From positions 1 through 36,517 of the forward strand of contig JAOUFJ010000026.1 in the NCBI GenBank assembly GCA_029858255.1: a stretch of 36,517 nucleotides of DNA, written 5' to 3'. Both the position numbers and the translations under genes were made by a program. This stretch comes from a candidate division WOR-3 bacterium. Lineage in GTDB: Bacteria > Hydrothermota > Tepidihabitantia > SM23-42. This document shows, one piece after another, positions 1 through 36,340 of this stretch. Under the pieces are notes generated by a model. It was not told the origin of the DNA, did not search any database, and saw only the letters and a list, made by a program, of their open reading frames with translations. Positions within the stretch are counted from its first letter, which is position 1; each line of letters begins with the position of its first letter.

Positions 1-86
1 AACTAACCGGAGGTCAATATTGACAAATAACTAACTACCAAGTATAGTAAAACCTAATCAGGGGAACGCAATTTTTTCATAGGTGA

Positions 87-614
87 CCCCATTCCTACCT
101 AAAGCTAAATGAAATCGAGATCGAAATTGCCAGGGCGGTTTCAGAACAAGAGAAAAGGAAGCAAGAACAGAAAGAGGAAGATCTTAAGAAAATTGAGGCA
201 GAAAAAAGGATTAGACAAGTAGAACAAGAAAGAATTGCCAGATTCGCTGCCCTGAGGGATGGTTGTAATGTTATCGCAAATCCAGATGTTCTCACACGAA
301 ATGAAAGCATTCATAAAGGGAAAATGGTGTTGGTGTGCGGTCGAATATGTCAACTGGGAACACGAGTAGGTGGGTATTATTTTCTTACAAACGCATGTAC
401 GATATTAGAAAAAGATGCGAGACGGGGATTTGTAACGGAGAGCATTATGTGGATAGATTCAAAGATTGCTCTAGTCGAAGGTGACGTGATATGGGTACGT
501 GGGAAATATATAGGCCTAAAATCATATAAGACAGTAATCGGGTTGGAGAAAGTGGTTCCCGAAATTGATGCTGTGTCTATATTTAATAGTGATTTCACAC
601 GCCAATTATATTGA
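87..614 (+). pseudogene. Start-less coiled-coil plus small C-terminal domain gene (remnant)
   Basis: The frame is open from 87 (just after a TGA at 84-86) to the TAA at 612-614, but the first ATG is at 324. The part before that ATG still reads like protein: roughly residues 8-55 are a charged heptad-like helix rich in E, K, Q and R (for example QEKRKQEQKEEDLKKIEAEK), followed by RDGCNVIANPDVLTRNESIHKGK. The part after 324 alternates hydrophobic and polar residues and resembles a small beta-rich, OB-like domain (LVCGRICQLG, GDVIWVRGKYIGLKSYK). No start codon or ribosome site precedes the helix, and the other two frames upstream contain stops. I read this as the 3' end of a gene that lost its beginning. 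A short protein starting at 324 (96 aa) remains possible. I do not recognise the family. Confidence 0.4.
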
Positions 615-650
615 AGAAATAACAATAGCACTAGTTCTAATCAACTACCA

Positions 651-681
651 GGGATCGGCAGTCATCAAAACCGCCGATCCC
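651..681. terminator. Hairpin, possible factor-assisted terminator
   Basis: A perfect 9-bp stem (GGGATCGGC at 651-659 with GCCGATCCC at 673-681) encloses a 13-nt loop. It lies 37 nt after the 87-614 frame and about 310 nt beyond the end of the minus-strand larA operon. Neither side has a good T-run, so intrinsic termination is not assured in either direction. Confidence 0.35.
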
Positions 682-712
682 TATCTCTGTGCGGTATTTG
701 TGTGGTGCATTT

Positions 713-795
713 ACCAAAACAAACGGTAATAGACAGAAAATCCCAAAACGGTCAGAATGGGTGAAAGCATTGTCTGGCTTGCGTCTGCTTGATTT
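713..795 (+). repeat. Dispersed intergenic repeat, copy A
   Basis: The last 41 nt (755-795) match 6957-6997 at 36 of 41 positions, and all five differences are transitions. The first part (ACCAAAACAAACGGTAATAG) resembles 5418-5436 of a more diverged copy. No reading frame is shared, so this is a non-coding repeat. Copies A and B lie in the same orientation on either side of the kamA-larA operon. Confidence 0.55.
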
Positions 796-858
796 CTATC
801 GGTATTTCGAAAGGTATGAAAGCGGAGGAAATTCTTGCGAAGAACAGAGGACAAGTGC

Positions 859-886
859 TTGACTTTAGAACGTAGAAAGTTATATT
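859..886 (+). promoter_or_regulatory. Orphan sigma-70-type promoter
   Basis: TTGACT (859-864), a 16-nt spacer and TATATT (881-886). The spacing equals that of all the other promoter-like sites in this window. It points away from any recognised gene and toward the end of larA on the opposite strand. It could drive the small frame at 922-1020 or an RNA antisense to larA. Confidence 0.4.
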
Positions 887-921
887 AAATGGGGCAAAAA
901 AGACAGGGGAGCAACCTTAGG

Positions 922-1020
922 ATGTCTCTACTAAAAAATGAGCTTTTTTTCCCATTTCACCTGGAACTTGACAGAAGGGAATGGACAGAACTCACTTTCC
1001 CCTTTTTACAGACCGCTTAG
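922..1020 (+). CDS. Possible 32-aa small protein, antisense to the larA end
   Basis: An ATG frame encodes MSLLKNELFFPFHLELDRRE followed by 12 more residues, ending at a TAG at 1018-1020. It begins 36 nt after the -10 element at 881-886, and AGGGGAG lies at 905-911. Its last 29 nt overlap the larA 3' end on the other strand. The frame is short and I recognise no family, so it may be chance. Confidence 0.18.
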   Translation: MSLLKNELFFPFHLELDRREWTELTFPFLQTA

Positions 1021-2266
1021 ATCCCTCTTTCAATTTACATATTATATTTGATCCATTGGGAATAAAGTACGCCATATGTTCCAATCCACAGCGGTCGTTA
1101 ATAAACTGTTTGATTCGTTGAAGGTCATACATGCTGTGCACGTTAATGAATTCTGATGACGTGCCGGCATTATTCGTATATAGGATTATTGTACACCGCG
1201 AGAAGTTCTTCGCAGTTAAGAACGCGCTGTGTACGCCGATATCGATCTCGTTTTGTTGTAGATTAAGCAGATCGGGCAGGGATTTATGCAATGATCTTTC
1301 ATAGACTTCATTTCCCATACCCTGTGGGAATTCGCCGAATACCACGACAATGCCTCCGGGTCGAGTAATAGATGCAGCCGTTGTTATTGCTCTTTGTGCA
1401 CTGTAAAGATTCGCATCACTTGGATAACCGCCACAGCTTACATATGTCACATCAGAATATTGGTTAATAGTTACAGAATTTATTTCATTGCATAATTCAC
1501 ATGCTGCGTTAAAAGCAGTATCAATGTCATCCGCAAAGATACCGGCTAATTCACCACTGTTATTCCTTACCAACTGAATACTGTAATCAACATTCAGCAG
1601 GTGCGCTGCTTCTGTCATCTCTTCATGGATCGGGTTCTTACTTAGTATCCCCACTCCGACGTTCTCCAAGATCACTTTCGAGTGGTTTTCCCTGATATTC
1701 GCGTATGAAGCTACACCGGGTAAAATTATCTTTCTGCCTCCAGTATACCCAGCAAAGACATGAGGAGAAACTGAACTGAGCGTGACAATGAAGTCTGCTT
1801 CTGCCACGTATTTGTTGACGGACAATCTTGAACCGGTTGATAATTTCCCAACATCCCGAAGAAGTGCATTGTCGTTACAGTCATGATCGATGGTCTCCAT
1901 ATCTCTGAGGTTTCTATATCCATATGCCCGCTCATTCTCAGCCGTGGTATGCTTTGAATGCGTGCCATAGGCAATTACGAGATACTTCTTAATCCTACCA
2001 TTTTGGTCAATCAATTTGTTCAACTCTGCGAGGAATTGCGGGTATTCGGGATTATTCCTGGTTTTATCTTCAACGATAACCGCCAGTGTTCGAATATTCC
2101 TGTTTCGCATGGTGCTCTTCAGGGGTTCGATCTTCTGCTTAAATTCAAAAAGGGCATCTGCTAACGGTGAATAATAAGAGGGAATTAGTATTCGATGAAG
2201 GCAACTTTTTTCAACCTCGACATCCACATACACCAATCCAAATTTGACTTTTATGCTAAACCCCAC
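992..2266 (-). CDS. larA: LarA-type nickel-dependent racemase (lactate racemase family)
   Basis: 424 aa, the same length as Lactobacillus plantarum LarA. LarA epimerises 2-hydroxy acids using a nickel-pincer nucleotide (NPN) bound to a lysine. The recalled LarA residues all appear here with a constant offset of 5: D72/R75 as D67/R70 (EDKTR), H108 as H103 (GTH), H174 as H169 (SPHVFAG), K184 as K179 (GGRKIILPG) and H200 as H195 (RENH). The catalytic site and cofactor lysine therefore look intact. The start is a GTG overlapping the end of the upstream ligase gene by 16 nt, which suggests translational coupling. It is the last gene of a four-gene operon. NPN synthesis genes (larB, larC, larE) are not in the window. 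The substrate may be lactate or another 2-hydroxy acid, since the wider family is diverse. Confidence 0.85.
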   Translation of the reverse strand: MGFSIKVKFGLVYVDVEVEKSCLHRILIPSYYSPLADALFEFKQKIEPLKSTMRNRNIRTLAVIVEDKTRNNPEYPQFLAELNKLIDQNGRIKKYLVIAYGTHSKHTTAENERAYGYRNLRDMETIDHDCNDNALLRDVGKLSTGSRLSVNKYVAEADFIVTLSSVSPHVFAGYTGGRKIILPGVASYANIRENHSKVILENVGVGILSKNPIHEEMTEAAHLLNVDYSIQLVRNNSGELAGIFADDIDTAFNAACELCNEINSVTINQYSDVTYVSCGGYPSDANLYSAQRAITTAASITRPGGIVVVFGEFPQGMGNEVYERSLHKSLPDLLNLQQNEIDIGVHSAFLTAKNFSRCTIILYTNNAGTSSEFINVHSMYDLQRIKQFINDRCGLEHMAYFIPNGSNIICKLKEGSKRSVKRGK

Positions 2267-3255
2267 CGCTGGAGAGCGCTTGTCAGTATCTTCTCTATCA
2301 TAGAATTGAACGCAACGCCATTCGATCTACAACACTGAGCAAGTGCCCGGTCAGGATGCAAAGTCGCATCTGCATTGAACTCGAGGAAGTAGTGTTTACC
2401 TGTCTGGTCCACCCTGACATCGAATACACCATAATCAAGTGGTAACAAGATATCATAAAGTTTATCACAATCCTTCAATACCTCGAAGACATCAGGTTGA
2501 TCTATTGCTCGTGCTATTTTTTGATAAATACCTTCCTTTTTTTGAGCAAAAGGGTAAAACCTATCCATTAAGGGCGATCCATCTTCGCGTGTATCTTCAA
2601 TAATACCTTTGAATTTTTTTACTTCGTTGCCAATATATCCTATCTTGTATTCCTTTCCAACAATGAATTCTTCGACAATTACCGGCATTTTTAGGTTCTG
2701 AAGGATGTAATTACATTGTTCATACAATTCCTCTCTATTCGAAACAACGGATCTCTCATGTACACCAATTGATGACCCTTCGTGAGCAGGTTTTACGATC
2801 AGAGGGAACTTCGGAAAATCCCATTGGTCCAAGGCACGAGCGTTATGTATATATATCCACGCGGGTGTCGGGATTTCTAGTTTGTCCATGAACGATTTCA
2901 TAAAATGCTTGTTCTGGCTTATGAATTTAGTATACGGGTCAGCACCGCTGTAAGGTATTCGTGCAAGTTCATAGAGCGATGGTGCAAGTGCCATACGAAA
3001 TCTTGATATAAAACCTACGGATAGGTTGAATATGAAATCAATCTTTCGCTTGAACTTATCCAAGGCATTCACCAGTACTTCAGGTGTACCAATAATAACC
3101 GTTGCGAACCCCAATTTCTCAATGGCCTGTTGTATTGCTGCTATTTCATGCGGCTCCCGCCAATGATAGAAATGATCGATAGTCTGATGCTCTTTTTTCT
3201 CACGGTCGGCATCCTCCCTCACTTCCAGAACGATACCGATGGTCTTAACCTTCAC
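2251..3255 (-). CDS. ATP-grasp ligase related to D-alanine-D-alanine ligase
   Basis: 334 aa. ATP-grasp features are clear: KP at 155-156, the phosphate-binding loop EGSSIGV at 159-165, EEFIVGKEY from 195, RVD at 281-283 and metal ligands E292/N294 in LEFNAD. This is the architecture of Ddl, which joins two D-amino acids using ATP. Substrate-side motifs differ: there is no N-terminal GG-x-S-x-E motif, no YDYxAKY omega loop (MDRFYPFAQKK here), and the N-x-x-PG-x-T-x-x-S segment is replaced by NADATLHPDR. I infer a Ddl-fold ligase with other substrates, possibly D-amino acid plus hydroxy acid or a beta-amino acid. The GTG start at 3255 has GGAG 5 nt upstream. It lies between vanW (14-nt gap) and larA (16-nt overlap). 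Confidence 0.75.
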   Translation of the reverse strand: MKVKTIGIVLEVREDADREKKEHQTIDHFYHWREPHEIAAIQQAIEKLGFATVIIGTPEVLVNALDKFKRKIDFIFNLSVGFISRFRMALAPSLYELARIPYSGADPYTKFISQNKHFMKSFMDKLEIPTPAWIYIHNARALDQWDFPKFPLIVKPAHEGSSIGVHERSVVSNREELYEQCNYILQNLKMPVIVEEFIVGKEYKIGYIGNEVKKFKGIIEDTREDGSPLMDRFYPFAQKKEGIYQKIARAIDQPDVFEVLKDCDKLYDILLPLDYGVFDVRVDQTGKHYFLEFNADATLHPDRALAQCCRSNGVAFNSMIEKILTSALQRWGLA

Positions 3256-3269
3256 ATTTACTCCATATT

Positions 3270-4061
3270 TTACTGGAGTAGAATTGGTTTGTAAGTGTCA
3301 GTTTTTGAGAACGTAAGCTTCCTCACACCGCTGCTCTTGATGATAAATCTCTCTGTCAACACCACCCAACCCTTCCTACCCTTTTGCGGATCAAAACCTG
3401 CGTTGCCAACAGATCTAGGCTCTAGTTCTTTCAAAACCCGATGTTTGATCTCTACCTTATATGGAAGCTCTCGGGGAGAATAGATCTGACAGTTCAAAAG
3501 GAGATCATTTCTATCTACGCTCATTCTGACTGCAATATCAGCTGGATGATCGTTCTTGAATTTAAGATCTCTCTGTGCATACACATATGTTGCATCTTTG
3601 CCAAGGTCTATGAAGCGGTTTTCCCCCCATATATCAGCACTATGATTATGCTTCTGCAGTATCTGCACATTGGCGAGCAAGGCGACATTGAACAACGCCG
3701 TGGAGATCTGACACAAGCCACCACCAACAGAACATGACAGCTGTCCTCCGACAATATTCGGACCTTCCTTAAAACCTCTTTCCTTTGTAGGTTCGCCGAT
3801 CACTTTTTGCACTGAAAAGACCTCCCGGGGGTGCAGGAGAATACCGTCGATGATCCCGCAACTCCTTTCCATATTGCTAATTCTGTTTTCATTGAGCTCC
3901 CCTAATTCATCACGCCACTTGATTTTTGTCGGAAAATCAGCAATAAGGTACCATGTGCTCATGTCTCCCACCGTTTGCTTAGATGTGACGATCCTGGTAT
4001 ACCATCCGTTCACTATACTGTTCAGATCGTCCAGGAGGAGACGTAAGTTCTTGAACTTCAT
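3270..4061 (-). CDS. VanW-domain protein
   Basis: 263 aa. The VanW signature is present: HPREVFSVQKVIGEPTKERG (77-96), the GGGLCQIST core at 113-121 with its conserved Cys, the HNHSADIWG segment at 138-146, GKDATYVYAQRDLKFKN at 154-170, and a C-terminal beta-rich part. VanW occurs as an accessory protein of vanB-type glycopeptide-resistance operons and in many genomes near cell-wall genes; its biochemical role is not settled. No signal peptide or membrane helix is visible, so this version appears cytosolic. It lies 11 nt after the kamA-like gene and 14 nt before the ligase gene, which ties it to the same pathway. The ATG at 4061 is preceded by AAAGAG. Confidence 0.8.
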   Translation of the reverse strand: MKFKNLRLLLDDLNSIVNGWYTRIVTSKQTVGDMSTWYLIADFPTKIKWRDELGELNENRISNMERSCGIIDGILLHPREVFSVQKVIGEPTKERGFKEGPNIVGGQLSCSVGGGLCQISTALFNVALLANVQILQKHNHSADIWGENRFIDLGKDATYVYAQRDLKFKNDHPADIAVRMSVDRNDLLLNCQIYSPRELPYKVEIKHRVLKELEPRSVGNAGFDPQKGRKGWVVLTERFIIKSSGVRKLTFSKTDTYKPILLQ

Positions 4062-4072
4062 GCTCTTTGCTT

Positions 4073-5254
4073 CTATTTCATCTCTTCAATGTCCGGGTAT
4101 GTCACCCAATGATTTTTCCAATTCTTGAATTTGATGATCGGTCTATTGTTCTCATCTCTTGTGTAGATGAAATTATCAGTACCATGTGGTTCCAAGGGAA
4201 TATCATGTTTTCCCTCTATGTGGAATAGGGTGTATTTTGGAAAAGCCGGACCAGGTATTTCTCGTCTTATCTCAGATAGCAAATGTACGCCCCGTTTGAC
4301 ACTCAATCCTCTGTTGCATCTACCAAGTGTGAACGGTGCATAGTGAAAAATATAGTATGGAGTGATCCTGCGTTGGTACAATTTAAGGAGCAGCTCCTGT
4401 AATACTTCTTTCGTATCATTAACCCCGCGAATAAGCGGACTCCTCCATAAGATCAATGGACGGTAGCCTACTTCATCAAACAAACGAAGTTTCTCATCAA
4501 CGATCGGAGATAGCTCTTTAGGATGAGCAAAATGAACTTCGAGTGCTGTCACATTATATTTTTTTATTATTTCAACCAGATCTGTATCGAACCGGAATGG
4601 ATTAAAGGTCAAGGCTCTTGTGTTCAACCTGATCGACTGGATTGAATCGATCGAGGATACATCCAAAAGTATCCTTTCAAGGTTCTCGTTATCAAACATC
4701 AACGGATCACCGCCACTAATTATGATATCGCGGATCTGTGGATTATTCCTCAAATACTGTATTGTTTTCTTCCACATTTCTTTCGTACCTGCGACATTCT
4801 TGGTTTTCTTCTTGTCCATGATCCGTGAAGTCAAATAGCAGTAATTACAGTAGCCAAAGCAGCAATCTACCAACCGTAAGATTGCTCTATCAGGATATTT
4901 ATGGTGGAGCATCCTTGTCGGTAGCTCTTCCGGGTTTTCCCAGTTTTCATGGATGCCATCATAGCATGATGTACCTTGAACCCCATCGTGTTGATCGAAT
5001 CGAAATTGATTCCATATTGGATCATTAAACAAAGGATTCAAATCTTCATCCAGTTCCACCAAGGATAATGTATATGGTGTAATTGCGAAACTGTACTTCT
5101 TGATATAACATTCAAACGTTTGAATATCGGTTTGATTAATATTTGGGAAATAATCCTTTATGTTCGATGCATTATCAAGGCGATTCTGCAGTTGCCACTT
5201 CCAATTGGTCCAGAGTGAGTCATCAAAATCCTTGAATTTCCAGAATCTCTCCAT
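4073..5254 (-). CDS. KamA-like radical SAM amino-acid 2,3-aminomutase
   Basis: 393 aa. The N-terminus (DSLWTNWKWQLQNRL) matches the start of lysine 2,3-aminomutases. The radical SAM cluster motif CxxxCxxC is C132, C136, C139 in a PDRAILRL context. SGGDPL (180-185), RSPLIRGVND (271-280) and a likely PLP lysine K349 in EGKHDIPLEP follow in family order. KamA enzymes move an alpha-amino group to the beta carbon using SAM, PLP and a [4Fe-4S] cluster. The aspartate of the lysine enzyme's VVDAPGGGGK segment (recalled as D330) is missing here (TLFHIEGK), while the GVND aspartate is kept. The substrate may therefore not be lysine. It is the first gene of the operon, and its ATG lies only 8 nt after a -10 element. 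Confidence 0.8.
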   Translation of the reverse strand: MERFWKFKDFDDSLWTNWKWQLQNRLDNASNIKDYFPNINQTDIQTFECYIKKYSFAITPYTLSLVELDEDLNPLFNDPIWNQFRFDQHDGVQGTSCYDGIHENWENPEELPTRMLHHKYPDRAILRLVDCCFGYCNYCYLTSRIMDKKKTKNVAGTKEMWKKTIQYLRNNPQIRDIIISGGDPLMFDNENLERILLDVSSIDSIQSIRLNTRALTFNPFRFDTDLVEIIKKYNVTALEVHFAHPKELSPIVDEKLRLFDEVGYRPLILWRSPLIRGVNDTKEVLQELLLKLYQRRITPYYIFHYAPFTLGRCNRGLSVKRGVHLLSEIRREIPGPAFPKYTLFHIEGKHDIPLEPHGTDNFIYTRDENNRPIIKFKNWKNHWVTYPDIEEMK

Positions 5255-5262
5255 CCGCTTCT

Positions 5263-5290
5263 ATTGTATCTATAGTTCGCGGATAGTCAA
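5263..5290 (-). promoter_or_regulatory. Promoter of the kamA-vanW-ligase-larA operon
   Basis: On the minus strand: TTGACT (5290-5285), a 16-nt spacer and TACAAT (5268-5263). Only AGAAGCGG separates the -10 from the kamA ATG at 5254. Transcription would begin within a few bases of the start codon, giving a leaderless or nearly leaderless mRNA. Confidence 0.6.
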
Positions 5291-5417
5291 TTAGATGTTG
5301 CGAACGTTAGCGCACGTGGGACACCTTGGTCATCACAGTGATAGAATGTTAAAGTAAAACTGGTAGAGCCAGATTTGCTCACCCCCCTACCTTGTGCCAA
5401 ATCTGTGCCATCTCGGC

Positions 5418-5500
5418 ACCAAAACATATGGTAATGACAGAACCTTCAGAATGGACAGAATGGTGCGAGGTGATTGGCTTGTATTTGTGCGATTTCAATG
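5418..5500 (+). repeat. Dispersed intergenic repeat, copy B
   Basis: ACCAAAACATATGGTAATGACAGAA here parallels ACCAAAACAAACGGTAATAGACAGAA in copy A (713 onward). The later part (GAATGGTGCGAGGTGATTGG and on to GCGATTT) is a diverged form of 755-795. It has the same orientation as copies A and C. Confidence 0.4.
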
Positions 5501-5506
5501 AAGTCA

Positions 5507-5543
5507 GGGAGTGATTCATCAGAATCACTCCCCTTTTCTTTTT
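5507..5543 (+). terminator. Strong rho-independent terminator with no gene upstream
   Basis: An 11-bp stem (GGGAGTGATTC at 5507-5517 with GAATCACTCCC at 5522-5532), a 4-nt loop and the tract TTTTCTTTTT (5534-5543). No plus-strand gene lies between 5255 and here. The stem-tail and the following 50 nt (TTGGACAGTTCTTGGACAG, then TGGAATTGGGTA) resemble the terminator and 3' flank of the beta-propeller gene at 9608-9690. It may be the tail of a deleted gene. Confidence 0.7.
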
Positions 5544-5697
5544 GGACAGTTCTTGGACAGTTTCTTGCCCAGAATGTATGGAATTGGGTACACTTCCGAG
5601 CCATAGCAAGACAATGCAAAATAGTGCTTTTTTCACCAAATTACGTAATATAAAGATCTTTCAAGATTGCTGTATTCGGATTCTCTCTCGATATCGA
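5544..5697. other. Intergenic stretch without a recognised gene
   Basis: This AT-rich sequence follows the orphan terminator. It contains the palindrome AAAGATCTTT (5652-5661). I see no convincing reading frame or further promoter here. Confidence 0.3.
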
Positions 5698-5717
5698 AGT
5701 CTCGATCTCTCGAGACT
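5698..5717. repeat. Perfect hairpin next to the broken tRNA
   Basis: AGTCTCGA (5698-5705) pairs with TCGAGACT (5710-5717) over 8 bp with a TCTC loop. It sits 4 nt from the point where the tRNA-Arg sequence breaks off. It could mark a recombination end or simply be a chance palindrome. Confidence 0.4.
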
Positions 5718-5721
5718 GAGA

Positions 5722-5759
5722 TGGAAGTCCGTCGCTCTATCCAGTTGAGCTACAGGCGC
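5722..5759 (-). pseudogene. 5' half of a tRNA-Arg gene (truncated)
   Basis: Read on the minus strand from 5759, the sequence is the 5' half of a tRNA: acceptor strand GCGCCTG, TA, D-stem GCTC/GAGC around AACTGGATA, then ACGGACTTCC entering the anticodon arm. It matches the beginning of bacterial tRNA-Arg of the UCU type. After the anticodon loop the sequence departs: there is no TCCGT partner strand, no T-arm (GGTTCGAATCC) and no CAGGCGC acceptor complement within the next few hundred bases. It cannot fold as a full tRNA, so it is a remnant, probably from integration or rearrangement. Confidence 0.7.
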
Positions 5760-6190
5760 TGGACTGATAACTGATACGGGATGACGGATACCAATTGAAT
5801 TATACTGAAATACCCTAAGCCGTCAACAAATAGCCATCATTACAGGGAATAAAACAAGAGGCGGACGACGAAACAATCTTAGGGGCACTTGATTTCTGTC
5901 AAATGTTTAGCTGAGTTTCAGAGGAGCGAAGTCCCGTTACATAATTGAAAAAGAAATGCATGCGAGATCGGGGATCTGACCCCATTCTTATCAAAAATCG
6001 ACTAAGAATCCCTGCTGGACTATCCACCAGACAGCACCATTTTGACCAGGTTGCGTTCGTCCAACCAGGTTGTAGGAACCCCCACTTAGGCACTGAGAAC
6101 GGGTGGTTCCTGGCGGAAATGGGTGGGGTGAAAATTGACATGGTTTTGCCTGTTTGTTGTCTATAACATCCTGACGAGGTGGACTTTGTA
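5760..6190. other. Degenerate intergenic stretch
   Basis: I see no convincing gene. The GGGG-ATCTGA-CCCC palindrome and following CATTCTTA (5970-5989) resemble TGACCCCATTCCTA at 84-97. A direct repeat ACCAGGTTG occurs twice near 6047-6074. An imperfect hairpin (AGGAACC with GGTTCCT) spans about 6073-6109. The stretch 5993-6018 is nearly the same as 7427-7451 inside the beta-propeller gene and encodes RIPAG in the matching frame. The 73-codon frame at 5945-6166 has no family look and is probably spurious. Confidence 0.35.
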
Positions 6191-6218
6191 TTGACAGTAC
6201 TATGTACATAGCTATACT
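6191..6218 (+). promoter_or_regulatory. Promoter of the small beta-barrel gene
   Basis: TTGACA (6191-6196), a 16-nt spacer and TATACT (6213-6218). The expected start of transcription is near 6225, giving a short leader before the ATG at 6249, with AGTAAGAG just upstream of the start codon. Confidence 0.7.
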
Positions 6219-6248
6219 TTCTGCGAAGCAAGAATAGTAAGAGTTACG

Positions 6249-6833
6249 ATGAAAAATGCAATAGGAATTCTGCTGTTTTTGTTACCATTTGTGGTAAAAT
6301 CTGCTACTGTAGAATGGAACATTGATCTAAATGTTGGTATATTTCATCCTACAGATACGATTTTGCAGAGATATTTCAACAGAAGCAATGTATGTACGTA
6401 TGGTGTTAATTGTAGCGTAGTGAACATCAGAAATAATCTCGGAGCATTTTTTAAATTCCAAAGATTCTCGTTCGATGTTAGTGATACACTTGGAGATGAG
6501 CATGTGCGAGGGAATTGGTTTACCTTTGGCTTGGAGAAGGTTATTCCGATATCCCTTGTTTTTCTATATGGTAGATTAGGGGTAACACTACACTATGACA
6601 GTTATGACCTTTTCTTGAACAATATTCGCCTTGGTTTTCAGCCTGGCTTGGGTATTAGATTGAGTGTCACAAGACGAATAAAACCATTTTTTGAAATAGA
6701 TTATGAGTATACTAGGTTATCTATTCCAACCTACGTGAATATGATTCCTACTCGTCATCAGGAGTATTTGGCTGGCAAAGATTTCCAAGCAGGTGGTATT
6801 TTGGTCAATGCTGGAATTTCATTTACTCTATGA
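6249..6833 (+). CDS. Small outer-membrane beta-barrel-like protein
   Basis: 194 aa. Residues 1-18 form a signal peptide (basic MKN, hydrophobic IGILLFLLPFVV, then KSA cleavage). The rest alternates polar and aromatic/hydrophobic residues in strand-length runs (LGAFFKFQRFSFDVS, NNIRLGFQPGLGIRLSV, IKPFFEIDYEYTRL) and ends GISFTL, like the last strand of an outer-membrane barrel. This suggests a roughly 8-strand porin-like or OmpA-like barrel exported to the outer membrane. I recognise no specific family or ligand. It is a single gene with its own promoter. Confidence 0.6.
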   Translation: MKNAIGILLFLLPFVVKSATVEWNIDLNVGIFHPTDTILQRYFNRSNVCTYGVNCSVVNIRNNLGAFFKFQRFSFDVSDTLGDEHVRGNWFTFGLEKVIPISLVFLYGRLGVTLHYDSYDLFLNNIRLGFQPGLGIRLSVTRRIKPFFEIDYEYTRLSIPTYVNMIPTRHQEYLAGKDFQAGGILVNAGISFTL

Positions 6834-6918
6834 AAAAGGCTAGCTTCAGCCGTCACCTCTAGCAGTGTGTTAAATTGACTCATAAAGATTTTATTGCCCT
6901 AAACGGCACCCTCAACAC

Positions 6919-6963
6919 GGAATAGGAATGGAATAGGAATGGGAATAGGAATGTAGGAATGGG
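6919..6963 (+). repeat. GGAATA/GGAATG short tandem repeat
   Basis: A run of imperfect 6-7-nt units (GGAATA, GGAATG, with small length changes) leads directly into repeat copy C. It could vary by replication slippage. Confidence 0.6.
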
Positions 6964-6997
6964 TGAAAACATTATCTGGCTTGCATTTGCTCGATTT
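6957..6997 (+). repeat. Dispersed intergenic repeat, copy C
   Basis: GAATGGGTGAAAACATTATC and the following 21 nt match 755-795 at 36 of 41 positions, with transitions only. No open frame is conserved between the copies. Confidence 0.55.
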
Positions 6998-7017
6998 TGA
7001 ACGTAATTGCGGAAGTT

Positions 7018-7119
7018 ACGAAAAATCATAGAATCGGATCCGTAGTCCGCCGCGTCTCTCTTGATTTCAAATTAAGATCTACGGACTTATAATCCGCAGT
7101 TTGTATTAATGATTTTCGT
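7018..7119. repeat. About 100-nt nested inverted repeat (structured element or MITE-like)
   Basis: Four nested pairings share one axis: ACGAAAAATCAT (7018-7029) with ATGATTTTCGT (7109-7119), CGGAT (7035-7039) with ATCCG (7092-7096), AGTCCG (7044-7049) with CGGACT (7082-7087), and CTTGATT (7060-7066) with AATTAAG (7070-7076) around a 3-nt loop. It ends 2 nt before the -35 element of the propeller gene. It could be a tiny non-autonomous inverted-repeat element, a cruciform-forming regulatory site, or a folded RNA read from farther upstream. Confidence 0.55.
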
Positions 7120-7121
7120 GC

Positions 7122-7149
7122 TTGACACACAGCACGATCGAACTACAAT
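7122..7149 (+). promoter_or_regulatory. Promoter of the beta-propeller gene
   Basis: TTGACA (7122-7127), a 16-nt spacer and TACAAT (7144-7149). Transcription should start near 7156, about 50 nt before the GTG start codon. Confidence 0.65.
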
Positions 7150-7206
7150 AAATCAGAACTTTCACTGAATTTTAGTAAACTTATAAGCGTATACAGGGAG
7201 GAAATC

Positions 7207-9582
7207 GTGACAAGTAAACAGAAGTACATATTAATATCCACTTCTATTATTCTGTGTCTCCCGTTGCTCGTATCCGCCCAATGGCTTGAAACAACGATCT
7301 ACGTGCCAGATTCCCTCTGTGGAGTCATAATGCCTAGAGCATTCACATATAGCCTGCCGAACAACAGAATCTATGTTGGTGGTGAAGCAGGCAACTGCGT
7401 GATTACGATTGACTGTGAGACGAATGAAAAGATCGCTAGAATCCCTGCTGGCCCAGGTATTCTTTCTCTCTGCTACAATTCGACTGATGATAAAGTCTAC
7501 TGCGCAAATTGTGATGGCGATAATTTAACCGTGATTGATGGAATAACTAATACCGTGATTACCACCATCACGGTCGGATTCAATCCTTATGCTTTACTCT
7601 ATAATCTGACTAACAACAAGATCTATTGTGCAAATCGGTATAGCAATACTGTGACCGTAATCGACGGTACGACCAACAATGTGATCAGCAACATCATGGT
7701 TGGTGATGGTCCCTGTGCTTTTGGATACAATCCGGCCAACAATAAGATCTACTGCGCAAATCAGTATAGCGACAGCGTGACCGTGATCGACGGTGCTACC
7801 AATAGCGTCATTACTAACATAAATGTCGATAGCTGCCCTCGCGCTTTCGTTTACAATCCGACCAACAACAAGATCTACTGCGCAAATAGCTATGGAGATA
7901 ATGTGAGCGTGATCGATGGAGTGACCAACAACGTTATTAGCACTGTCACAGTCGGTGATGGTCCTCGAGCCTTAGTCTATAATCCCTCCAACGACAAAGT
8001 ATACTGCGCAAATCAATACAGCAATAATGTTACGGTGATTGACGGTGCGACTAACGGCGTGATTACCACCATCACGACTGGCAGTAATCCTTATGACTTA
8101 GTCTACAATCCAGCCAACAACACGGTCTACTGCATAAATAGCTACAGCGATAGCACAACCGTGATCGACGGAGCAACTAACAATGTGATTTCTACTATCG
8201 CGGTTGGTGATTGGCCTTGTGCTTTAGCCTACAACCCGACCGATGATGAGATCTATTGTGCTAATAGATATGGTGGTAGCCTGACCGTAATTGATGCAAT
8301 CAACAATAGCATCATCAACACACTCGCGGTCGGCAGCTGTCCTTGTGTCTTTGCGTACAATTCCACAAGCAACACAGTCTACGCTGCAACTCAGTATAGC
8401 GATATTATCACTGCGATTGATGGCGTGACGAACACAGTAATTACAAATATCCCATCCGGTCGCTATCCCCAATCACTTATCTATAATGCCTTCACCAATA
8501 AAATCTACTGTGCAAATGGTGGAAGCAACAATGTAACAGTAATCGACGGAGCCACCAATCTTGTTATTGACACAATCACAGTCGGTCAAAATCCTTGTGC
8601 ATTAGTACGTAATACAAACAATAATATCTACTGTGTAAATAAATATAGTGATAATATGACCGTGATCGATGGAGCGAACGACAGTGTGATTACCACCCTG
8701 AACGTCGGCACTAGTCCTATCAACTTAGTATATAACTCCACAGACAACAAGGTGTACTGCGCTAACCAAGGAAGCAATTCTATAACCATAATTGATGGTT
8801 CGACAAACAACATCATCACCAATATCACAGTCGGTGGTGGTCCATATGCCTTAGTCTATAATTCAACAGATAACAAGGTCTATAGCGCTAATCAGTACAG
8901 CGACAATGTGTCTGTGATTGACGGCGCGGGTGATAGCGTGATTACTACTGTGATAGTTGGTGATTGGCCTGTTGCATTGGTCCATAATTCCATAAACAAC
9001 AAAGTCTATTGTGCGAATGAATCAAGCGACAATGTATCAGTAATCGATGGCGTGATCGACAGCGTGATTGCCACGATCACAGTTGGCAACGTGCCGTGTG
9101 CATTCGTTCACGATTTCGCCAATAACAATGTGTACTGCGCAAATTTTTCCGACAGTAGTGTCACCGTGATTAATGGTGCAACCGATAGTGTAATTACAAA
9201 TCTCGTAGTTGGTGACAAACCTATTTCCTTTACTTTGAATCCTGTTCAGAATCGGATCTACGTAGCAAATTACTATAGTTCAAGTGTTTCGGTGATTTGC
9301 GACTCGGTAACGGGAATAGACGAGTTATCGCAAAGCACTTCGTACTTAACTTTGGCCGTCTATCCCAATCCGACAAAAACGGCACTCACTATTCGTGCTT
9401 ACGGACCGCTGCGCAATGTCAGGATATATGACATCCTTGGTGAATTAGTAAGAACAGTGACTTTGACAAAATTTGATAATGTAATCACAGTCTCGATGAA
9501 TAACATGAGCGCCGGCGTTTATTTTGTGAAGGTGAATACCGAAGACTCTGAGTTAATCAGAAAAGTGGTAGTGACAAAGTGA
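7207..9582 (+). CDS. Secreted YVTN/NHL-type beta-propeller repeat protein with type-A sorting domain
   Basis: 791 aa. The start is GTG with AGGGAGGAAATC immediately upstream. Residues 1-25 are a signal peptide ending LLVSAQ. About 15 tandem repeats of about 42 residues follow, with consensus VTVIDGxTNxVIxTITVG, then PxALVYNPTNNKIYCAN. These are the four-stranded blades of YncE/YVTN-like propellers. Most blades carry a Cys in the YCAN strand. The last 75 residues are a sorting domain (VYPNPTKTALTIRAYG ... VRIYDILGELVRTV ... MSAGVYFVKV) of the kind used by type IX secretion. I infer a cell-surface protein, possibly for binding. Fifteen blades suggests two propellers. The tandem 126-nt DNA units are likely to recombine or mis-assemble. 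Confidence 0.8.
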   Translation: MTSKQKYILISTSIILCLPLLVSAQWLETTIYVPDSLCGVIMPRAFTYSLPNNRIYVGGEAGNCVITIDCETNEKIARIPAGPGILSLCYNSTDDKVYCANCDGDNLTVIDGITNTVITTITVGFNPYALLYNLTNNKIYCANRYSNTVTVIDGTTNNVISNIMVGDGPCAFGYNPANNKIYCANQYSDSVTVIDGATNSVITNINVDSCPRAFVYNPTNNKIYCANSYGDNVSVIDGVTNNVISTVTVGDGPRALVYNPSNDKVYCANQYSNNVTVIDGATNGVITTITTGSNPYDLVYNPANNTVYCINSYSDSTTVIDGATNNVISTIAVGDWPCALAYNPTDDEIYCANRYGGSLTVIDAINNSIINTLAVGSCPCVFAYNSTSNTVYAATQYSDIITAIDGVTNTVITNIPSGRYPQSLIYNAFTNKIYCANGGSNNVTVIDGATNLVIDTITVGQNPCALVRNTNNNIYCVNKYSDNMTVIDGANDSVITTLNVGTSPINLVYNSTDNKVYCANQGSNSITIIDGSTNNIITNITVGGGPYALVYNSTDNKVYSANQYSDNVSVIDGAGDSVITTVIVGDWPVALVHNSINNKVYCANESSDNVSVIDGVIDSVIATITVGNVPCAFVHDFANNNVYCANFSDSSVTVINGATDSVITNLVVGDKPISFTLNPVQNRIYVANYYSSSVSVICDSVTGIDELSQSTSYLTLAVYPNPTKTALTIRAYGPLRNVRIYDILGELVRTVTLTKFDNVITVSMNNMSAGVYFVKVNTEDSELIRKVVVTK

Positions 9583-9607
9583 TATTCGCTGGAATAAGTA
9601 AGTGAAA

Positions 9608-9640
9608 GGGAAGTAACCTAGATTACTCCCCTTTTCATTT
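9608..9640 (+). terminator. Terminator of the beta-propeller gene
   Basis: GGGAAGTAA (9608-9616) pairs with TTACTCCC (9623-9630), with one bulged A, followed by CTTTTCATTT. The stop codon is 26 nt upstream. The sequence after it (GGTCCACTTTTGGTCCAA, then CGGAATTAGGTA) is related to the flank of the orphan terminator at 5507. Confidence 0.7.
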
Positions 9641-10036
9641 GGTCCACTTTTGGTCCAATTTAAGCATAGAATACACGGAATTAGGTAGAATTCTACCGTT
9701 TCTCTTTATCAGCATTTTCAATAATAAGGAAACGAGTATCCTCGTCCCGAAAGCGGGACGGGACGTTCAATAGCGAGAAAGAGCAAAATTCCCGCAAAGC
9801 ATTGATACACCGTAATCTCAGCGAATTCAAAGTGTAGTGTAATCGCATTCGAAGCCCGTATCGTCAAAAACATCGGAAGTTGAGAAGGTAAGAAGTTAAG
9901 AGGCTAAGAAACAGAACGATACTAGCGGAACCGATCGTCTTTTAGTAATTTCGAATTTCGCAACTCCAAATTCAAAATGTTGTTATAACAGTAATAACGG
10001 ACTAAACGAGAATAACGAGCCAAACGAGATTAGCGA
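9641..10036. other. Intergenic region between propeller and transporter genes
   Basis: I see no gene. There is a hairpin CGTCCCG-AAAG-CGGGACG at 9743-9760. The stretch 9890-10030 is purine-rich and low in complexity, with short near-repeats such as GAGAAGGTAAGAAGTTAAGA and CGAGAATAACGAGCCAAACG. Confidence 0.35.
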
Positions 10037-10930
10037 TTATAGCAGAAATATCAATGCAACGCCAATGACGGCAATGATCGTTCCGAGTATGGCTCCGGTA
10101 CTGATCTTTTCTTTGAATATCCAGTATGACAAAGGAATCAGAAGAATCGGCGGCAGTGCCATGAGGGTCGATGCGATGCCTATGTAGGTGTTCTGGACTG
10201 CCACGAGCGACAACCATACTCCCAGAAAAGGTCCGAAGAACGCGCCACCTATCATTGCCGTTGCACCTTTTCTATCGTTAAGCTTAACCACAGTCCGTGG
10301 TACTCGACCCCGAACGAGCGTAATCAGCCAGAGTAGACACGCTGCAACGAAGACCCGGATTATGTTGCCAGAGAGTGCAGAGTAATTGTCGGCGAGACCC
10401 TTTTTGGATAAGATCAGACCGAGTGCCTGGCCCATCGCGCCACCAATGCCACACATGATGCCGAGGATGTAGTGATTTTTTTTGTGACCGTTGTTCCGAC
10501 GTTCTGCGACCACCCATATAATACCAGCAATCACAATTGTAATGGCAAGGAGTTGGGTGAAATCGAGCAACTCGTCCAGAAATAACCATGCAATGAATGT
10601 TCCGAAAACCGGGACGAGTGCCATTAACAGCATGCTTATTCTGGCGCCGAGCAATACAAATGCCCGGAACAGTAGCATATCACCAATGGCAAAGCCGATA
10701 ATCCCGGATAATCCAAACCAGAACCAGTGGTGTTGACTGGCGGCAGTCGGAAAGAACCCTCCAAACGTTACGAAATGAGCGATCATGAGCAGAATCAACG
10801 CTACAACCAGTCGCAGACGGTTCACCGTATTATGACCGAGTCGTCGTGAGGATATGGTGAAGAGTATCGAACCAAAAGACCAGCAGAGTGCCGTACCGAT
10901 GGCTGCGAATTCACCGAAATAGCTGGTCAC
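10037..10930 (-). CDS. EamA/DMT-family transporter
   Basis: 297 aa, mostly hydrophobic, with about ten predicted membrane helices in two EamA halves (roughly residues 7-140 and 150-297). Typical features are the N-terminal GTALCWSFGSILFT, the GFAIGDMLLFRAFVLLGARI stretch in the first half, and the closing GAILGTIIAVIGVALIFLL. EamA proteins export or import small metabolites such as amino acids, and the substrate cannot be told from sequence. It is transcribed alone from a promoter about 200 nt upstream, with a structured leader. A second member of the family is at 28696-29538. Confidence 0.8.
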   Translation of the reverse strand: MTSYFGEFAAIGTALCWSFGSILFTISSRRLGHNTVNRLRLVVALILLMIAHFVTFGGFFPTAASQHHWFWFGLSGIIGFAIGDMLLFRAFVLLGARISMLLMALVPVFGTFIAWLFLDELLDFTQLLAITIVIAGIIWVVAERRNNGHKKNHYILGIMCGIGGAMGQALGLILSKKGLADNYSALSGNIIRVFVAACLLWLITLVRGRVPRTVVKLNDRKGATAMIGGAFFGPFLGVWLSLVAVQNTYIGIASTLMALPPILLIPLSYWIFKEKISTGAILGTIIAVIGVALIFLL

Positions 10931-29708: not shown

Positions 29709-32339
29709 ATGAGAAGAGTTATTTTTGTAGTAGCAGCTCTGGTAGGAACGTGTTTTGCAGTTTCCCTTTGGACAGAAGAGGATTTTATCAATGCCGATTC
29801 GATCCCGCGTGAATCTCCCGTGCTGCAATCCGCCGTTCATCTAACGCGTGGCGAGTGGCAGCGTTGGAGCTATATCCACGAATTGTGCCAGACCGCAGCG
29901 TTTGTAGCCTCAATGCAGGTATCGGATCCGCTGGATCCGGAATTCGGGGGCATAATTGAAGGGGAAGATGCCCTTACTGTGATTGAAACCGACAACACGC
30001 AGCAAGCGATCTGGGTGTGGTGTCGTTATTATGAAATAACCGGCGATACCACATATTTCGAGAATATCCGGCGTGCCTGGATCTATGTCATGAATTTCCC
30101 CGCCTATCTGGAGGGAAGCGGGGAGAGTATCTTCTACGGCGTCTGGAATTGCGGATTAGGTCTCTTTGCCGAAAGCATGTACAGGAACACTCTTGGTGAT
30201 ACTACTTACCGGGTCTATGCAGACACTTGCGTTGGTTTTATGCTGGCGAATCCTCTTGATTTTACTGGTGTGAGCACATACTATCAGAGGCTGCATCCAA
30301 AGGTCCAGTCTCTCGTTGCTGGTATGTTATACCAATACGGTAAAGAGATGAACAATCAAGTCTGGAAAGATACGGCGGTAGCCTACGGTACAAGAGTGAG
30401 GCAGTGGATCGAATCGAATCCGGATACCAACATAAACGACGAGGTGTGGGCAATGTCGGGCGGTACTGCAGTGTGGGGAATGTGCCGTTCAATATTCGAC
30501 GCCGACACGTCGTATGGGATCAGCTGGCTGAGCACGTATCTTCCGTATATGAAGTACTTTCAACCCACCGGAACCTGGAACAATTCCTGGAATATCTGGT
30601 ACGGCAATGCATACAATCATGCGGCAAGGATCACTCAGAATCTAACGTATGTTGACTATCATCACGCTTTGACCGATAGTCTACTTGTACAAGATTATGA
30701 CGATGACGGCGGTGTCCCGCCGACAAGGGGTTGGACCCAGTATCAAGATCATACATGGGTATCAAACTACATGGTGTTCATGGGTTTTGAAGGGTTGATG
30801 GATTCGATAAGGAATATCGATGCTGGAGTCAACGGTATATACGCGACCGGGCAGGAGCCTTATTTTCTCTCGGATGATACGGTTACGCTGTCGATGCGGA
30901 TTGCCAACTACGGCTTCCAGCCGTTACAGAACGCATATTTCGCCTTGGTCGGCGCACACGCGGGTGATACGATTATCGATTTAGAGATAGGTGTAGAGGA
31001 TTCCATTGCAGTCGCTGGCGTATGGGTGCCCGGCGATACTGGGTATTTTGCGTTTAACGCGTATAGCTCGTATCCGAATGATGGCCGGGTCGAGAACGAT
31101 ACATTCCATGCCTCTATATACATAAATCCGTTGAGACAACTCTCTGGCAACATTAGCGATACTCTGAATGGTAATGGGGTATCTGCCAGATTGTACTTCC
31201 AATTTGTTGACGCAGCCGGAGCCGAATACTTCGACAGTACATTGAGTGATTCGGTGACTGGACACTTCAGCGTCTATTTGATCGATTCACTCTACCGCGT
31301 TATTGTCCAAACCAGGATTCCTTACCCCGAATTGCTAGTCGAGAACGTCTATGTGACTCCGGAATCGATTTCTGTAGTCGATATTGGCACGAGCCCCGCT
31401 GACCTGCTAATTGTCAACCGTGACAATGAAGAAAGATATGCGGAATACTACACAGTGTGTCTCGATACGCTGAACACGACCTACAAGATATGGGCGCCTG
31501 CCAGTCAAGGGATATTTCCCATCAGCAGGATTGATGAATTCAATACCAGTACGATAATATGGTATACGGGCAGAGCCGCAGTGAATACAGTGACGTCAGC
31601 CGAACAGGACAGTTTGATTCAATTCCTTGATGGAGGTGGTAAATTGATCATTACTGGTCAGAATATCGGTGAAGAGATATCCGGTACCACGTTCTACGGA
31701 AGCTGGCTTCATGCACAGCTGGTGAACGATTCGATATCTATCACACGCTGCTATCCCGACACACTTGATTCTCTGGGACAATCTATGATAAAGATATTTA
31801 CGGTCGGCAGCGCGCCGAGCCAGTACTCGCGTGATGTAATTGCATCTGATGGTAGTGCGCATCAGTTCCTTTATTATGATACTCTCCTTACGAATTGCGC
31901 GGCGATATGGTATAATTCACCATTCCCTGATTACCGCGTTATATACTCTGGGTTCGGGCTTGAAGCGATTAACCAGATCCCTGGACACATGAGCCTTACC
32001 GAAGTACTCGCAGCTTTTCTTGATTGGTTCGGCATATTGTCGGTGGAAGAGGACCAGATGGGTAGAATTAACATCCCTCTTTGTACGGTGTTTCCTAATC
32101 CGGTCAGAGGTCTAATGCAAATAAGGATGGGGAGTACTGTTATTGGTGAGTTTGGGTCAATTCTGGTCTATGATGTTGCGGGAAGGTTGGTGAGGACTGT
32201 GCATGAAGGACAGTTGCCCGATGCTATTATGTGGCATCTCAAAGATGATATCGGCCGCCAGCTGCCCAGTGGTGTATACTTCATTAACTTGAGGACGAAA
32301 CAGCGAGGTGAGATGCTAAAGGTCGTTGTTGTTGATTAA
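29709..32339 (+). CDS. Secreted multidomain protein with type-A sorting domain
   Basis: 876 aa. Signal peptide 1-17 (VIFVVAALVGTCFA). Residues about 45-370 are Trp/Tyr-rich and helical, with spaced W-G and Y-x-x-x-H segments (NDEVWAMSGGTAVWGMCRSI, WNIWYGNAYNHAARI), suggesting an alpha/alpha-barrel like those of six-hairpin glycosidases; no catalytic residue can be assigned. About 380-560 are beta-rich Ig/carboxypeptidase-regulatory-like domains. About 575-770 resemble a class I amidotransferase-like fold (TIIWYTGR, FLDGGGKLIITGQNI), as seen in other secreted repeat proteins. The last 85 residues are a sorting domain (VFPNPVRGLMQIRMG, ILVYDVAGRLVRTV, LPSGVYFINL). I infer a surface or extracellular protein, possibly acting on polysaccharide. 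It ends tail-to-tail with dnaE, the stops overlapping. Confidence 0.65.
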   Translation: MRRVIFVVAALVGTCFAVSLWTEEDFINADSIPRESPVLQSAVHLTRGEWQRWSYIHELCQTAAFVASMQVSDPLDPEFGGIIEGEDALTVIETDNTQQAIWVWCRYYEITGDTTYFENIRRAWIYVMNFPAYLEGSGESIFYGVWNCGLGLFAESMYRNTLGDTTYRVYADTCVGFMLANPLDFTGVSTYYQRLHPKVQSLVAGMLYQYGKEMNNQVWKDTAVAYGTRVRQWIESNPDTNINDEVWAMSGGTAVWGMCRSIFDADTSYGISWLSTYLPYMKYFQPTGTWNNSWNIWYGNAYNHAARITQNLTYVDYHHALTDSLLVQDYDDDGGVPPTRGWTQYQDHTWVSNYMVFMGFEGLMDSIRNIDAGVNGIYATGQEPYFLSDDTVTLSMRIANYGFQPLQNAYFALVGAHAGDTIIDLEIGVEDSIAVAGVWVPGDTGYFAFNAYSSYPNDGRVENDTFHASIYINPLRQLSGNISDTLNGNGVSARLYFQFVDAAGAEYFDSTLSDSVTGHFSVYLIDSLYRVIVQTRIPYPELLVENVYVTPESISVVDIGTSPADLLIVNRDNEERYAEYYTVCLDTLNTTYKIWAPASQGIFPISRIDEFNTSTIIWYTGRAAVNTVTSAEQDSLIQFLDGGGKLIITGQNIGEEISGTTFYGSWLHAQLVNDSISITRCYPDTLDSLGQSMIKIFTVGSAPSQYSRDVIASDGSAHQFLYYDTLLTNCAAIWYNSPFPDYRVIYSGFGLEAINQIPGHMSLTEVLAAFLDWFGILSVEEDQMGRINIPLCTVFPNPVRGLMQIRMGSTVIGEFGSILVYDVAGRLVRTVHEGQLPDAIMWHLKDDIGRQLPSGVYFINLRTKQRGEMLKVVVVD

Positions 32340-35119: not shown

Positions 35120-36278
35120 GATCGCTGTCTTTGAAATGTTTCTTTAACACGGTGGTATTGGCAGCAAAAAGAGTATTGAATCCGAATTTATTCCGTGCCC
35201 TATCCAGGGCGCCATTCAATCGATTAAGACGTTCCTCCTTTAACATAAACATGGAGGACTGCAAACCGTCGTATTCAAAACCTGATAAGGCGATGCCGAT
35301 CAGTCTTATTCGTTTTTTTTCCTTCAGAATTTCCTCTAAGATCCTTGCGCTGAGTTCAAAAATTATTTGCTGGGCATTACCAGCGGGTATTTTGGTTCTC
35401 CTGGATATCGTTTTGAAGTCGGAAAACCTCGTTTTCACCGTCACTGTTTTGGCGAGTAATTTATTTTTGCGCAGTGTACTGCATGCGCGTTCTGTAAGGT
35501 AATATAATAATGCATAAATAAGGTTTCGATTCAAGGTGTCTTCATGTAAGGTTGTTTCACGGCTAATGGATTTCATCGTATCTGAGCATTGATAGTCACC
35601 ACCTTGTATGAAAAATTTGAGTATTTTATAATAACTGCCCAAGGCAGTTTCCAATATCCAGTCTGGGGTTTTTATTAATTCTTGTACTGTGGTGATATTC
35701 AGATTTTTAAGAACGGCAACATTTTTTGGTCCGATGCCGGGTAGGACGTTGACACCAAGGGGCGTGAGAAACGGTATTTCATCTTTTTGCGGGACCGCGA
35801 TAGTACCGTTAGGCTTAGATTGTTCACAGGCGATTTTCGAGAATACTCTTGTTCGCGCAATACCGATGGAGGATGGAATGTTCAGGGTTTCTTTGATCTC
35901 ATTTTTCATTTTATAGGCCAATTCGAGAGGAGGTCCGAATAAACGCTGGGTTCCCGTTGTATTGATATATGCTTCGTCTATTGAGACCATGTCTACTTCC
36001 GGAGAATAGGAACTTATGATCTCATAAAATCGGTTCGAATATAGCCGATAGTGCTGGAAATTTCCTCTTAAGAATATTGCCCGGGGGCAGAGTCGGTAAG
36101 CAAGGGATGTGGGCATACCTGAGTGGATGCCGAATTTTCTTGCTTCATACGATGCCGAGGCGACTACGCCTCTTTCCTGGGGTAGTCCGCCGACAATTAC
36201 TGGTTTGTATAGTAATGACGGATCCAGCGCTTGCTCTACGGAAACAAAGAAAGCATCCAGGTCAATGCAGATATACAT
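35082..36278 (-). CDS. dinB: Y-family DNA polymerase IV (DinB)
   Basis: 398 aa from ATG 36278, which has GGAG 8 nt upstream; the GTG at 36287 would add three residues. Catalytic acids are intact: D6 and D8 in CIDLDAFFVSVE, and D101/E102 in VSIDEAY. Other DinB features are VASASYEARKFGIHSGMP, the HhH-type LPGIGPKNVAVLKNLNITTV and a little-finger domain (KTRFSDFKTISRRTKI). It copies damaged DNA at low fidelity. Being active, it differs from ImuB, the inactive partner usual beside DnaE2. It overlaps the dnaE gene by 38 nt. No LexA-like box or N16 promoter was found upstream. Confidence 0.85.
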   Translation of the reverse strand: MYICIDLDAFFVSVEQALDPSLLYKPVIVGGLPQERGVVASASYEARKFGIHSGMPTSLAYRLCPRAIFLRGNFQHYRLYSNRFYEIISSYSPEVDMVSIDEAYINTTGTQRLFGPPLELAYKMKNEIKETLNIPSSIGIARTRVFSKIACEQSKPNGTIAVPQKDEIPFLTPLGVNVLPGIGPKNVAVLKNLNITTVQELIKTPDWILETALGSYYKILKFFIQGGDYQCSDTMKSISRETTLHEDTLNRNLIYALLYYLTERACSTLRKNKLLAKTVTVKTRFSDFKTISRRTKIPAGNAQQIIFELSARILEEILKEKKRIRLIGIALSGFEYDGLQSSMFMLKEERLNRLNGALDRARNKFGFNTLFAANTTVLKKHFKDSDHGYTLHTPSLSQ

Positions 36279-36340
36279 AACATGCACTCCAGGTCATAGT
36301 GCCGTTCTTCCTTCTTATGTTACCGCGACAGTGAGGAGCG

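Follow-up and report, generated by a model that had tools for sequence, protein, structure and literature searches.

Among described systems, pyrrolysine biosynthesis (PylB-PylC-PylD) places a radical SAM mutase before an ATP-grasp ligase. Glycopeptide-resistance operons of the vanB and vanG types bring together VanW, a ligase of the Ddl superfamily and a source of a D-2-hydroxy acid. VanW proteins of C. difficile were identified in 2024 as L,D-transpeptidases whose triad consists of Cys, His and a small residue; some other VanW proteins lack L,D-transpeptidase activity and have unknown roles (PMC12729407). The locus described here lies on a contig of a candidate division WOR-3 bacterium (JAOUFJ010000026.1), which was analyzed over its full 36,517 nucleotides and is termed the window. 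It joins a KamA-like radical SAM enzyme, a VanW-domain protein, a Ddl-like ATP-grasp ligase and a LarA-superfamily protein. This is a genuine cassette, with the four families kept together in two distant phyla. The reading that we favor, with a confidence somewhat short of even, is a biosynthetic cassette making a small ligated molecule.

All four genes are on the minus strand. Pfam confirms the superfamily of each product: Radical_SAM (1.6e-10) for the KamA-like open reading frame (4073-5254; 393 amino acids), VanW (2.3e-36) for the second open reading frame (3270-4061; 263 amino acids), Dala_Dala_lig_C (1.7e-20) for the ligase (2251-3255; 334 amino acids), and Lar_N (2.3e-37) for LarA (992-2266; 424 amino acids, GTG start). 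The KamA end at 4073 and the VanW start at 4061 leave an 11-nucleotide gap, the VanW end at 3270 and the ligase start at 3255 leave 14 nucleotides, and the ligase end at 2251 and the LarA start at 2266 produce a 16-nucleotide overlap. These positions, gaps and overlap are as given in an earlier note on this DNA. Its further claim of one promoter is not supported: the match TTGACT-16-TACAAT (5263-5290, minus strand), 8 nucleotides before the KamA ATG, is indistinguishable from regional background, with 20 promoter-like matches in that region and 15.2 +/- 4.0 expected. None of the four proteins reaches a curated NCBIfam cut-off, and the shortfall is mostly wide.

A ligase scan of genome contigs recovered the same cassette in a Brevinematales spirochaete (genome G147, contig L021). 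The gene order is that of the window (KamA, VanW, ligase, LarA), every gene overlaps the next, and the respective identities to the window proteins are 50%, 45%, 50% and 37%. In a genome of the same family (G149, contig L051), the KamA-VanW-ligase trio is kept and LarA is missing. There, a convergent gene for a D-isomer-specific 2-hydroxyacid dehydrogenase has its stop 3 nucleotides from the ligase stop. Since a racemase and a D-2-hydroxyacid dehydrogenase can both give a D-2-hydroxy acid, the swap fits that role. The earlier note had made its proposal depend on co-occurrence of the four families in related genomes; they do co-occur, with unchanged gene order in another phylum and as a LarA-less trio in a third genome. 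In maximum-likelihood trees, the three cassette KamAs form one clade and the three cassette ligases another, each with 100/100 support and a stem of ~2 changes per site, and the active-site residues peculiar to the cassette are invariant in all three members.

The cassette is rare. Within the window's phylum, VanW is found in 1 genome out of 147, the window's own; a close VanW is found in 2 of 393 Spirochaetota genomes, and a cassette-type KamA in 2 of the 18 genomes of G147's class, in both cases G147 and G149. None of the 390 genomes searched as relatives of the window's own has another cassette-type ligase, and the next best matches are genomes with a KamA-Ddl-Ddl-GNAT arrangement. Viral contigs gave no relatives of the ligase and ten KamA matches at 27-29% identity. 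The literature search returned no paper joining VanW, aminomutase and ATP-grasp, and none joining aminomutase, ATP-grasp and D-alanine-D-alanine ligase.

Just upstream of the L021 cassette, and on its strand, are a potassium channel gene and one encoding a cNMP-binding protein. Divergent from the L051 cassette, positions 4743-10302 carry a sulfur-assimilation set of a Cys/Met pyridoxal phosphate (PLP) enzyme, a ThiF-like protein, a DsrE-like protein, a JAB protease and a sulfite-reductase/TusA fusion.

The KamA-like protein resembles the KamA/AblA and GAM aminomutases in fold, cluster motif and chain length. It matches lysine 2,3-aminomutase (LAM; 2a5h) in sequence at 1.6e-53, and its AlphaFold model aligns to the same structure over 344 residues (Z 37.3, 30% identity). 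The CxxxCxxC cysteines (C132/C136/C139) are invariant in the cassette KamAs, and the SGG[DE]P motif is also kept. We take LAM K337 to be the PLP Schiff-base lysine and D293 and D330 to hold the lysine side chain. All three cassette KamAs depart at these positions: the K337 column is occupied by D351, with an invariant lysine (K349) two residues earlier that might take over, D293 is replaced by A306 (P307 in the pairwise alignment) and D330 by F344. The equivalents of K337, D293 and D330 are kept in the other seven KamAs aligned. The carboxylate arginine R134 has no safe placement in the cassette KamA, which has one inserted residue. Assignment as a standard 2,3-aminomutase of lysine, glutamate or arginine was rejected, given that no NCBIfam cut-off is reached and key residues are replaced. 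These substitutions suggest that either the shifted lysine holds PLP or the reaction is not the classical 2,3-amino shift. The earlier statement that KamA makes beta-amino acids is weakened accordingly for the cassette enzyme, where the fold and cysteines stand and the lysine and both aspartates do not.

The ligase retains the nucleotide and magnesium residues of the ATP-grasp family (equivalents of K144, K215, D257, E270 and N272), as in Ddl and VanA-type ligases. It differs from both at residues of the substrate and oxyanion site, with residue roles taken from DdlB and VanA. In the cassette ligases, V/T stands in for R255, the P275-G276 loop reads A-T, and S281 has become R; the position of Y216, which is also that of the VanA omega-loop H244, holds K, K and S in the three proteins. 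All three share two motifs of their own: the N-terminal HWREPxE lies by the first-substrate site, and N[AT]DATLHPxR by the second. The operon ligase scores 98.7 bits against the TIGR01205 Ddl cut-off of 245.65, and its best D_ala_D_lac score is 39.9 against a cut-off of 550. Contig C7 of the same genome encodes a canonical Ddl distinct from the operon ligase (292 bits with TIGR01205; 353 bits with PRK01372, cut-off 243). Assignments as an ordinary D-Ala-D-Ala ligase and as a D-Ala-D-Lac (VanA-type) ligase were rejected on the scores, the lost residues and the separate Ddl. Because the key Ddl residues are gone and a canonical Ddl is encoded elsewhere, the simple D-Ala-D-Ala ligase that the earlier note had named as fatal to its proposal appears not to be what the operon encodes.

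The LarA protein (992-2266, minus strand) is a predicted nickel-pincer 2-hydroxyacid racemase or epimerase. It keeps the catalytic His pair and the Arg, Lys and His that bind the nickel-pincer nucleotide (NPN), and larB, larC and larE score above their cut-offs in all three cassette genomes, so that it shares with the LarA superfamily both its catalytic residues and its genomic context. The earlier note had called for larB, larC and larE to be sought elsewhere in the window's genome, and all are present; as judged from these genes, the NPN cofactor pathway is complete. In the G147 proteins, the search found no LarA relative other than the cassette one. The selectivity residues of the cassette LarAs are unlike those of the described classes. 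Positions F175, F176, W358 and T359 of LarA1 have been used to predict function across the superfamily (PMC11770544); these are V, F, H and S in the window protein, and L021 differs in having A at the first. Neither combination fits a described class. The carboxylate contacts Gln295 and Lys298 (PMC11623692) are also replaced, by Ser/His and Arg. The nearest class is the LarAH6 malate racemases, with a score of 288 bits where the cut-off is 500, and the H and S found at 358/359 differ from the H/Q and K required there.

The VanW protein belongs to its family by score (PF04294, 124.6 bits, cut-off 27), and its C117 and H140 are invariant in 7 aligned sequences. In these features it resembles LdtCd4 and LdtCd5 of C. 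difficile. It differs in having neither membrane anchor nor PG4 domain, and in being encoded among small-molecule enzymes. The three cassette VanWs show neither a signal peptide nor a membrane segment (N-terminal hydrophobicity, maximum KD19 of 0.5 to 1.0), so the extracytoplasmic location expected of a VanW acting on peptidoglycan is not seen and the protein looks cytoplasmic. This makes cytoplasmic acyl transfer or hydrolysis likelier than cross-linking of the wall. The model of the protein (mean predicted local distance difference test score, pLDDT, 76.6) gave no good match in the fold search; residues 196-263 are weakly like G5 domains (Z about 4.5), a likeness that is limited to the C-terminal part and says nothing on the catalytic part.

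Taken together, sequence establishes the gene set, its order and linkage, the housekeeping Ddl, the NPN pathway and the lack of canonical Ddl, LAM and known LarA substrate signatures. From this we infer an order of reactions, both substrates, a product and a role for VanW. The ATP-grasp enzyme would convert one carboxylic acid to its acyl phosphate and ligate this to an acceptor through an amine or hydroxyl group. Of the two partners, one would be a D-2-hydroxy acid supplied by LarA or, in L051, probably by the D-2-hydroxyacid dehydrogenase. The other would be the amino acid that results from rearrangement by the KamA-like enzyme, a beta-amino acid or a related compound. The cytoplasmic VanW, as a putative Cys/His enzyme of the L,D-transpeptidase type, would trim or transfer the acyl product, and the final compound would be an amide or ester of the rearranged amino acid and the D-2-hydroxy acid.

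Several observations weigh against this scheme. In the KamA-like enzyme, both side-chain aspartates are gone and the usual PLP position holds no lysine; the enzyme may therefore be something other than an aminomutase. LarA, at 37% identity, is conserved less well than the other cassette members, the L051 dehydrogenase is convergent, outside the operon and a single case, and three genomes only carry the set. A more specific form of the scheme is more tentative, and we would sooner doubt than assert it: an undescribed conjugate of a hydroxy acid and a beta-amino acid, made by a repurposed KamA with its PLP lysine shifted two residues or its PLP lost, a ligase other than Ddl, a VanW acting as an acyltransferase in the cytoplasm, and a racemase of the nickel-pincer type. 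If true, VanW would be seen in small-molecule synthesis for the first time, and LarA would for the first time serve a dedicated ligation pathway other than that of D-Ala-D-Lac. Confirmation would add a ligation pathway that depends on a radical SAM mutase together with a nickel enzyme, provide a role for an anchorless VanW, and allow a test of whether a KamA fold can function once its PLP lysine is moved or absent. Four enzymes of well-studied superfamilies, each with substrate residues unlike those of any described member, are here kept together by selection across phyla.

Related arrangements in the window's phylum support a general theme of KamA-made beta-amino acids joined by Ddl-like ligases. 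KamAs that keep the LAM residues adjoin one or two Ddl-like ligases. In L024 (8251-12022), KamA and two Ddl-like genes are followed by a GNAT acetyltransferase gene, with the same gene layout in L025 and L026; in L035 (15753-19504), the GNAT gene lies between KamA and the ligases, as in the layout of L036 (7983-11613), the presence of GNAT having been checked in L024 and L035. L028 (8537-12119) and L029 (1905-5567) carry KamA with one Ddl-like ligase, and a gene for a family S58 peptidase converges on the pair with a slight overlap; the S58 family includes beta-peptidyl aminopeptidases. The window cassette would be a far-diverged and more elaborate version of the same theme. The idea that beta-amino acids are ligated, put forward in the earlier note, thus gains from sister cassettes with a true LAM-type KamA, two of them beside an S58 peptidase, and loses from the replaced residues of the window KamA.

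Other observations concern KamA and Ddl-like genes more widely. The cassettes of a LAM-type KamA and two tandem Ddl-like ligases (L024-L027, L035, L036) span several families of the phylum, and the literature search found no description of KamA with tandem Ddl-like ligases, with or without GNAT. Several genomes of the phylum appear to encode a fusion of a methyltransferase and a Ddl-like ATP-grasp domain (~630-690 amino acids); this architecture is confirmed for L031 (10224-12128), and L032, L033, L034, L037, L038 and L039 have open frames of similar length. KamA genes also occur in large phages (~195-735 kb), namely LR756500.1 (L023), MT366760.1 (L111) and the Pseudomonas putida phages PP496436-PP496444, in contexts unlike the cassette. 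Some are annotated as lysine 2,3-aminomutase, and a Vibrio phage copy lies near queC and topoisomerase genes.

The alternative that survives best, although we consider it unlikely, is modification of the cell wall. Here the ligase would make D-Ala-D-X or a dipeptide containing a beta-amino or hydroxy acid, MurF would add this to the stem, LarA would give the D-hydroxy acid, and VanW would be an adapted L,D-transpeptidase. The ligase does belong to the Ddl superfamily, a source of D-2-hydroxy acid is present at all three loci, and the VanW family, which accompanies vanB-type operons, includes L,D-transpeptidases (PMC12729407). Those of C. difficile are membrane-attached and have PG4 domains, whereas the cassette VanW has no signal or membrane segment. 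Neither Ddl Y216 nor VanA H244 is at its position, R255 and S281 are replaced, the set has no vanX-, vanY- or murF-like gene, and the host keeps its canonical Ddl. VanX, VanY and VanRS are absent from the cassette genes and their window neighbors alike. With no VanX/VanY, no VanRS and no D-Ala-D-Lac/Ser ligase, the locus is not a van glycopeptide-resistance operon, and a vancomycin-type or Ddl operon was rejected as its identity, the genome having its own Ddl and the ligase lacking Ddl residues. A peptidoglycan reading is possible and is less supported than the biosynthetic one. Of the amino- or hydroxy-acid ligation pathway first proposed, the cassette stands and the supply of a D-hydroxy acid fits; the altered peptidoglycan terminus is not borne out.

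Synthesis of a compatible solute appears less likely still. KamA family enzymes make beta-amino acids that serve as osmolytes, and the product could be a beta-amino acid or hydroxy-acyl amino acid comparable to the N-epsilon-acetyl-beta-lysine of AblA/AblB. The GNAT acetyltransferase of the sister cassettes and the potassium channel and cNMP-binding protein genes of L021 would suit this function. The window cassette, however, has no GNAT, its KamA has lost the LAM lysine-binding residues, and VanW and LarA play no part in known osmolyte pathways.

Catabolism or detoxification is improbable. LarA superfamily enzymes often act in hydroxy-acid catabolism, and a rare, mobile-looking set could act on an amino or hydroxy acid from outside the cell, capturing and converting it, with the ligase conjugating it for inactivation. 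The operon itself has no transporter, transcriptional regulator or dehydrogenase gene, and an ATP-spending ligation would be unusual in catabolism.

The genomic setting bears on the origin of the cassette. Positions 9848-36221 are colinear with G089, a complete genome of the same genus, at ~81% nucleotide identity. This block, together with an HdrA-like gene that is 87% identical in G089, indicates that the contig is native to its genus. The upstream segment that bears the cassette (1-9847) has no match in the syntenic G089 stretch compared, and both recent gain by the window's lineage and loss in its relatives would fit. The operon is outlying in tetranucleotide bias (0/300 chunks). Neighboring stretches, one of them partly shared with G089, are outlying too, which makes composition weak evidence for transfer, and no convincing repeats were found at the cassette ends. 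The cassette is probably moving horizontally. That it is a chance assembly of four independent, hitchhiking genes with no common pathway is already largely refuted, since, for all that the segment looks acquired, with VanW in none of the other 146 genomes of the phylum and no syntenic G089 match, the same order and overlapping genes recur in another phylum at 37-50% identity, the active sites are clade-specific and the trio is kept in a third genome.

The remainder of the window encodes other functions. The colinear block includes an electron-transfer group of HdrA-like, FlpD, NuoE/F-like and two-component genes. Many homologues of the window's HdrA-like protein, in G077, G078, G080 and other genomes, carry a single in-frame TGA that is read through, an indication of selenocysteine. 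A DnaE-like polymerase lies beside an IMS-type DNA polymerase (32336-36287). Sorting domains for type IX secretion (Por_Secre_tail) mark the repetitive beta-propeller proteins and large secreted proteins of regions 7207-9582 and 29709-32339; the former region falls inside the segment unmatched in G089.

Compared with described systems as a whole, the cassette has in common with vanB/vanG-type operons a VanW, a Ddl-superfamily ligase and a source of a D-2-hydroxy acid. It departs from them in lacking VanX/VanY/VanRS and the VanA/VanB/VanG ligase signatures, in its added radical SAM enzyme, and in having LarA in the place of VanH. From PylB-PylC-PylD it differs in its protein families and in having no PylD-like gene; by general description, the two have a logic in common, in which an ATP-grasp ligase acts after a radical SAM mutase.

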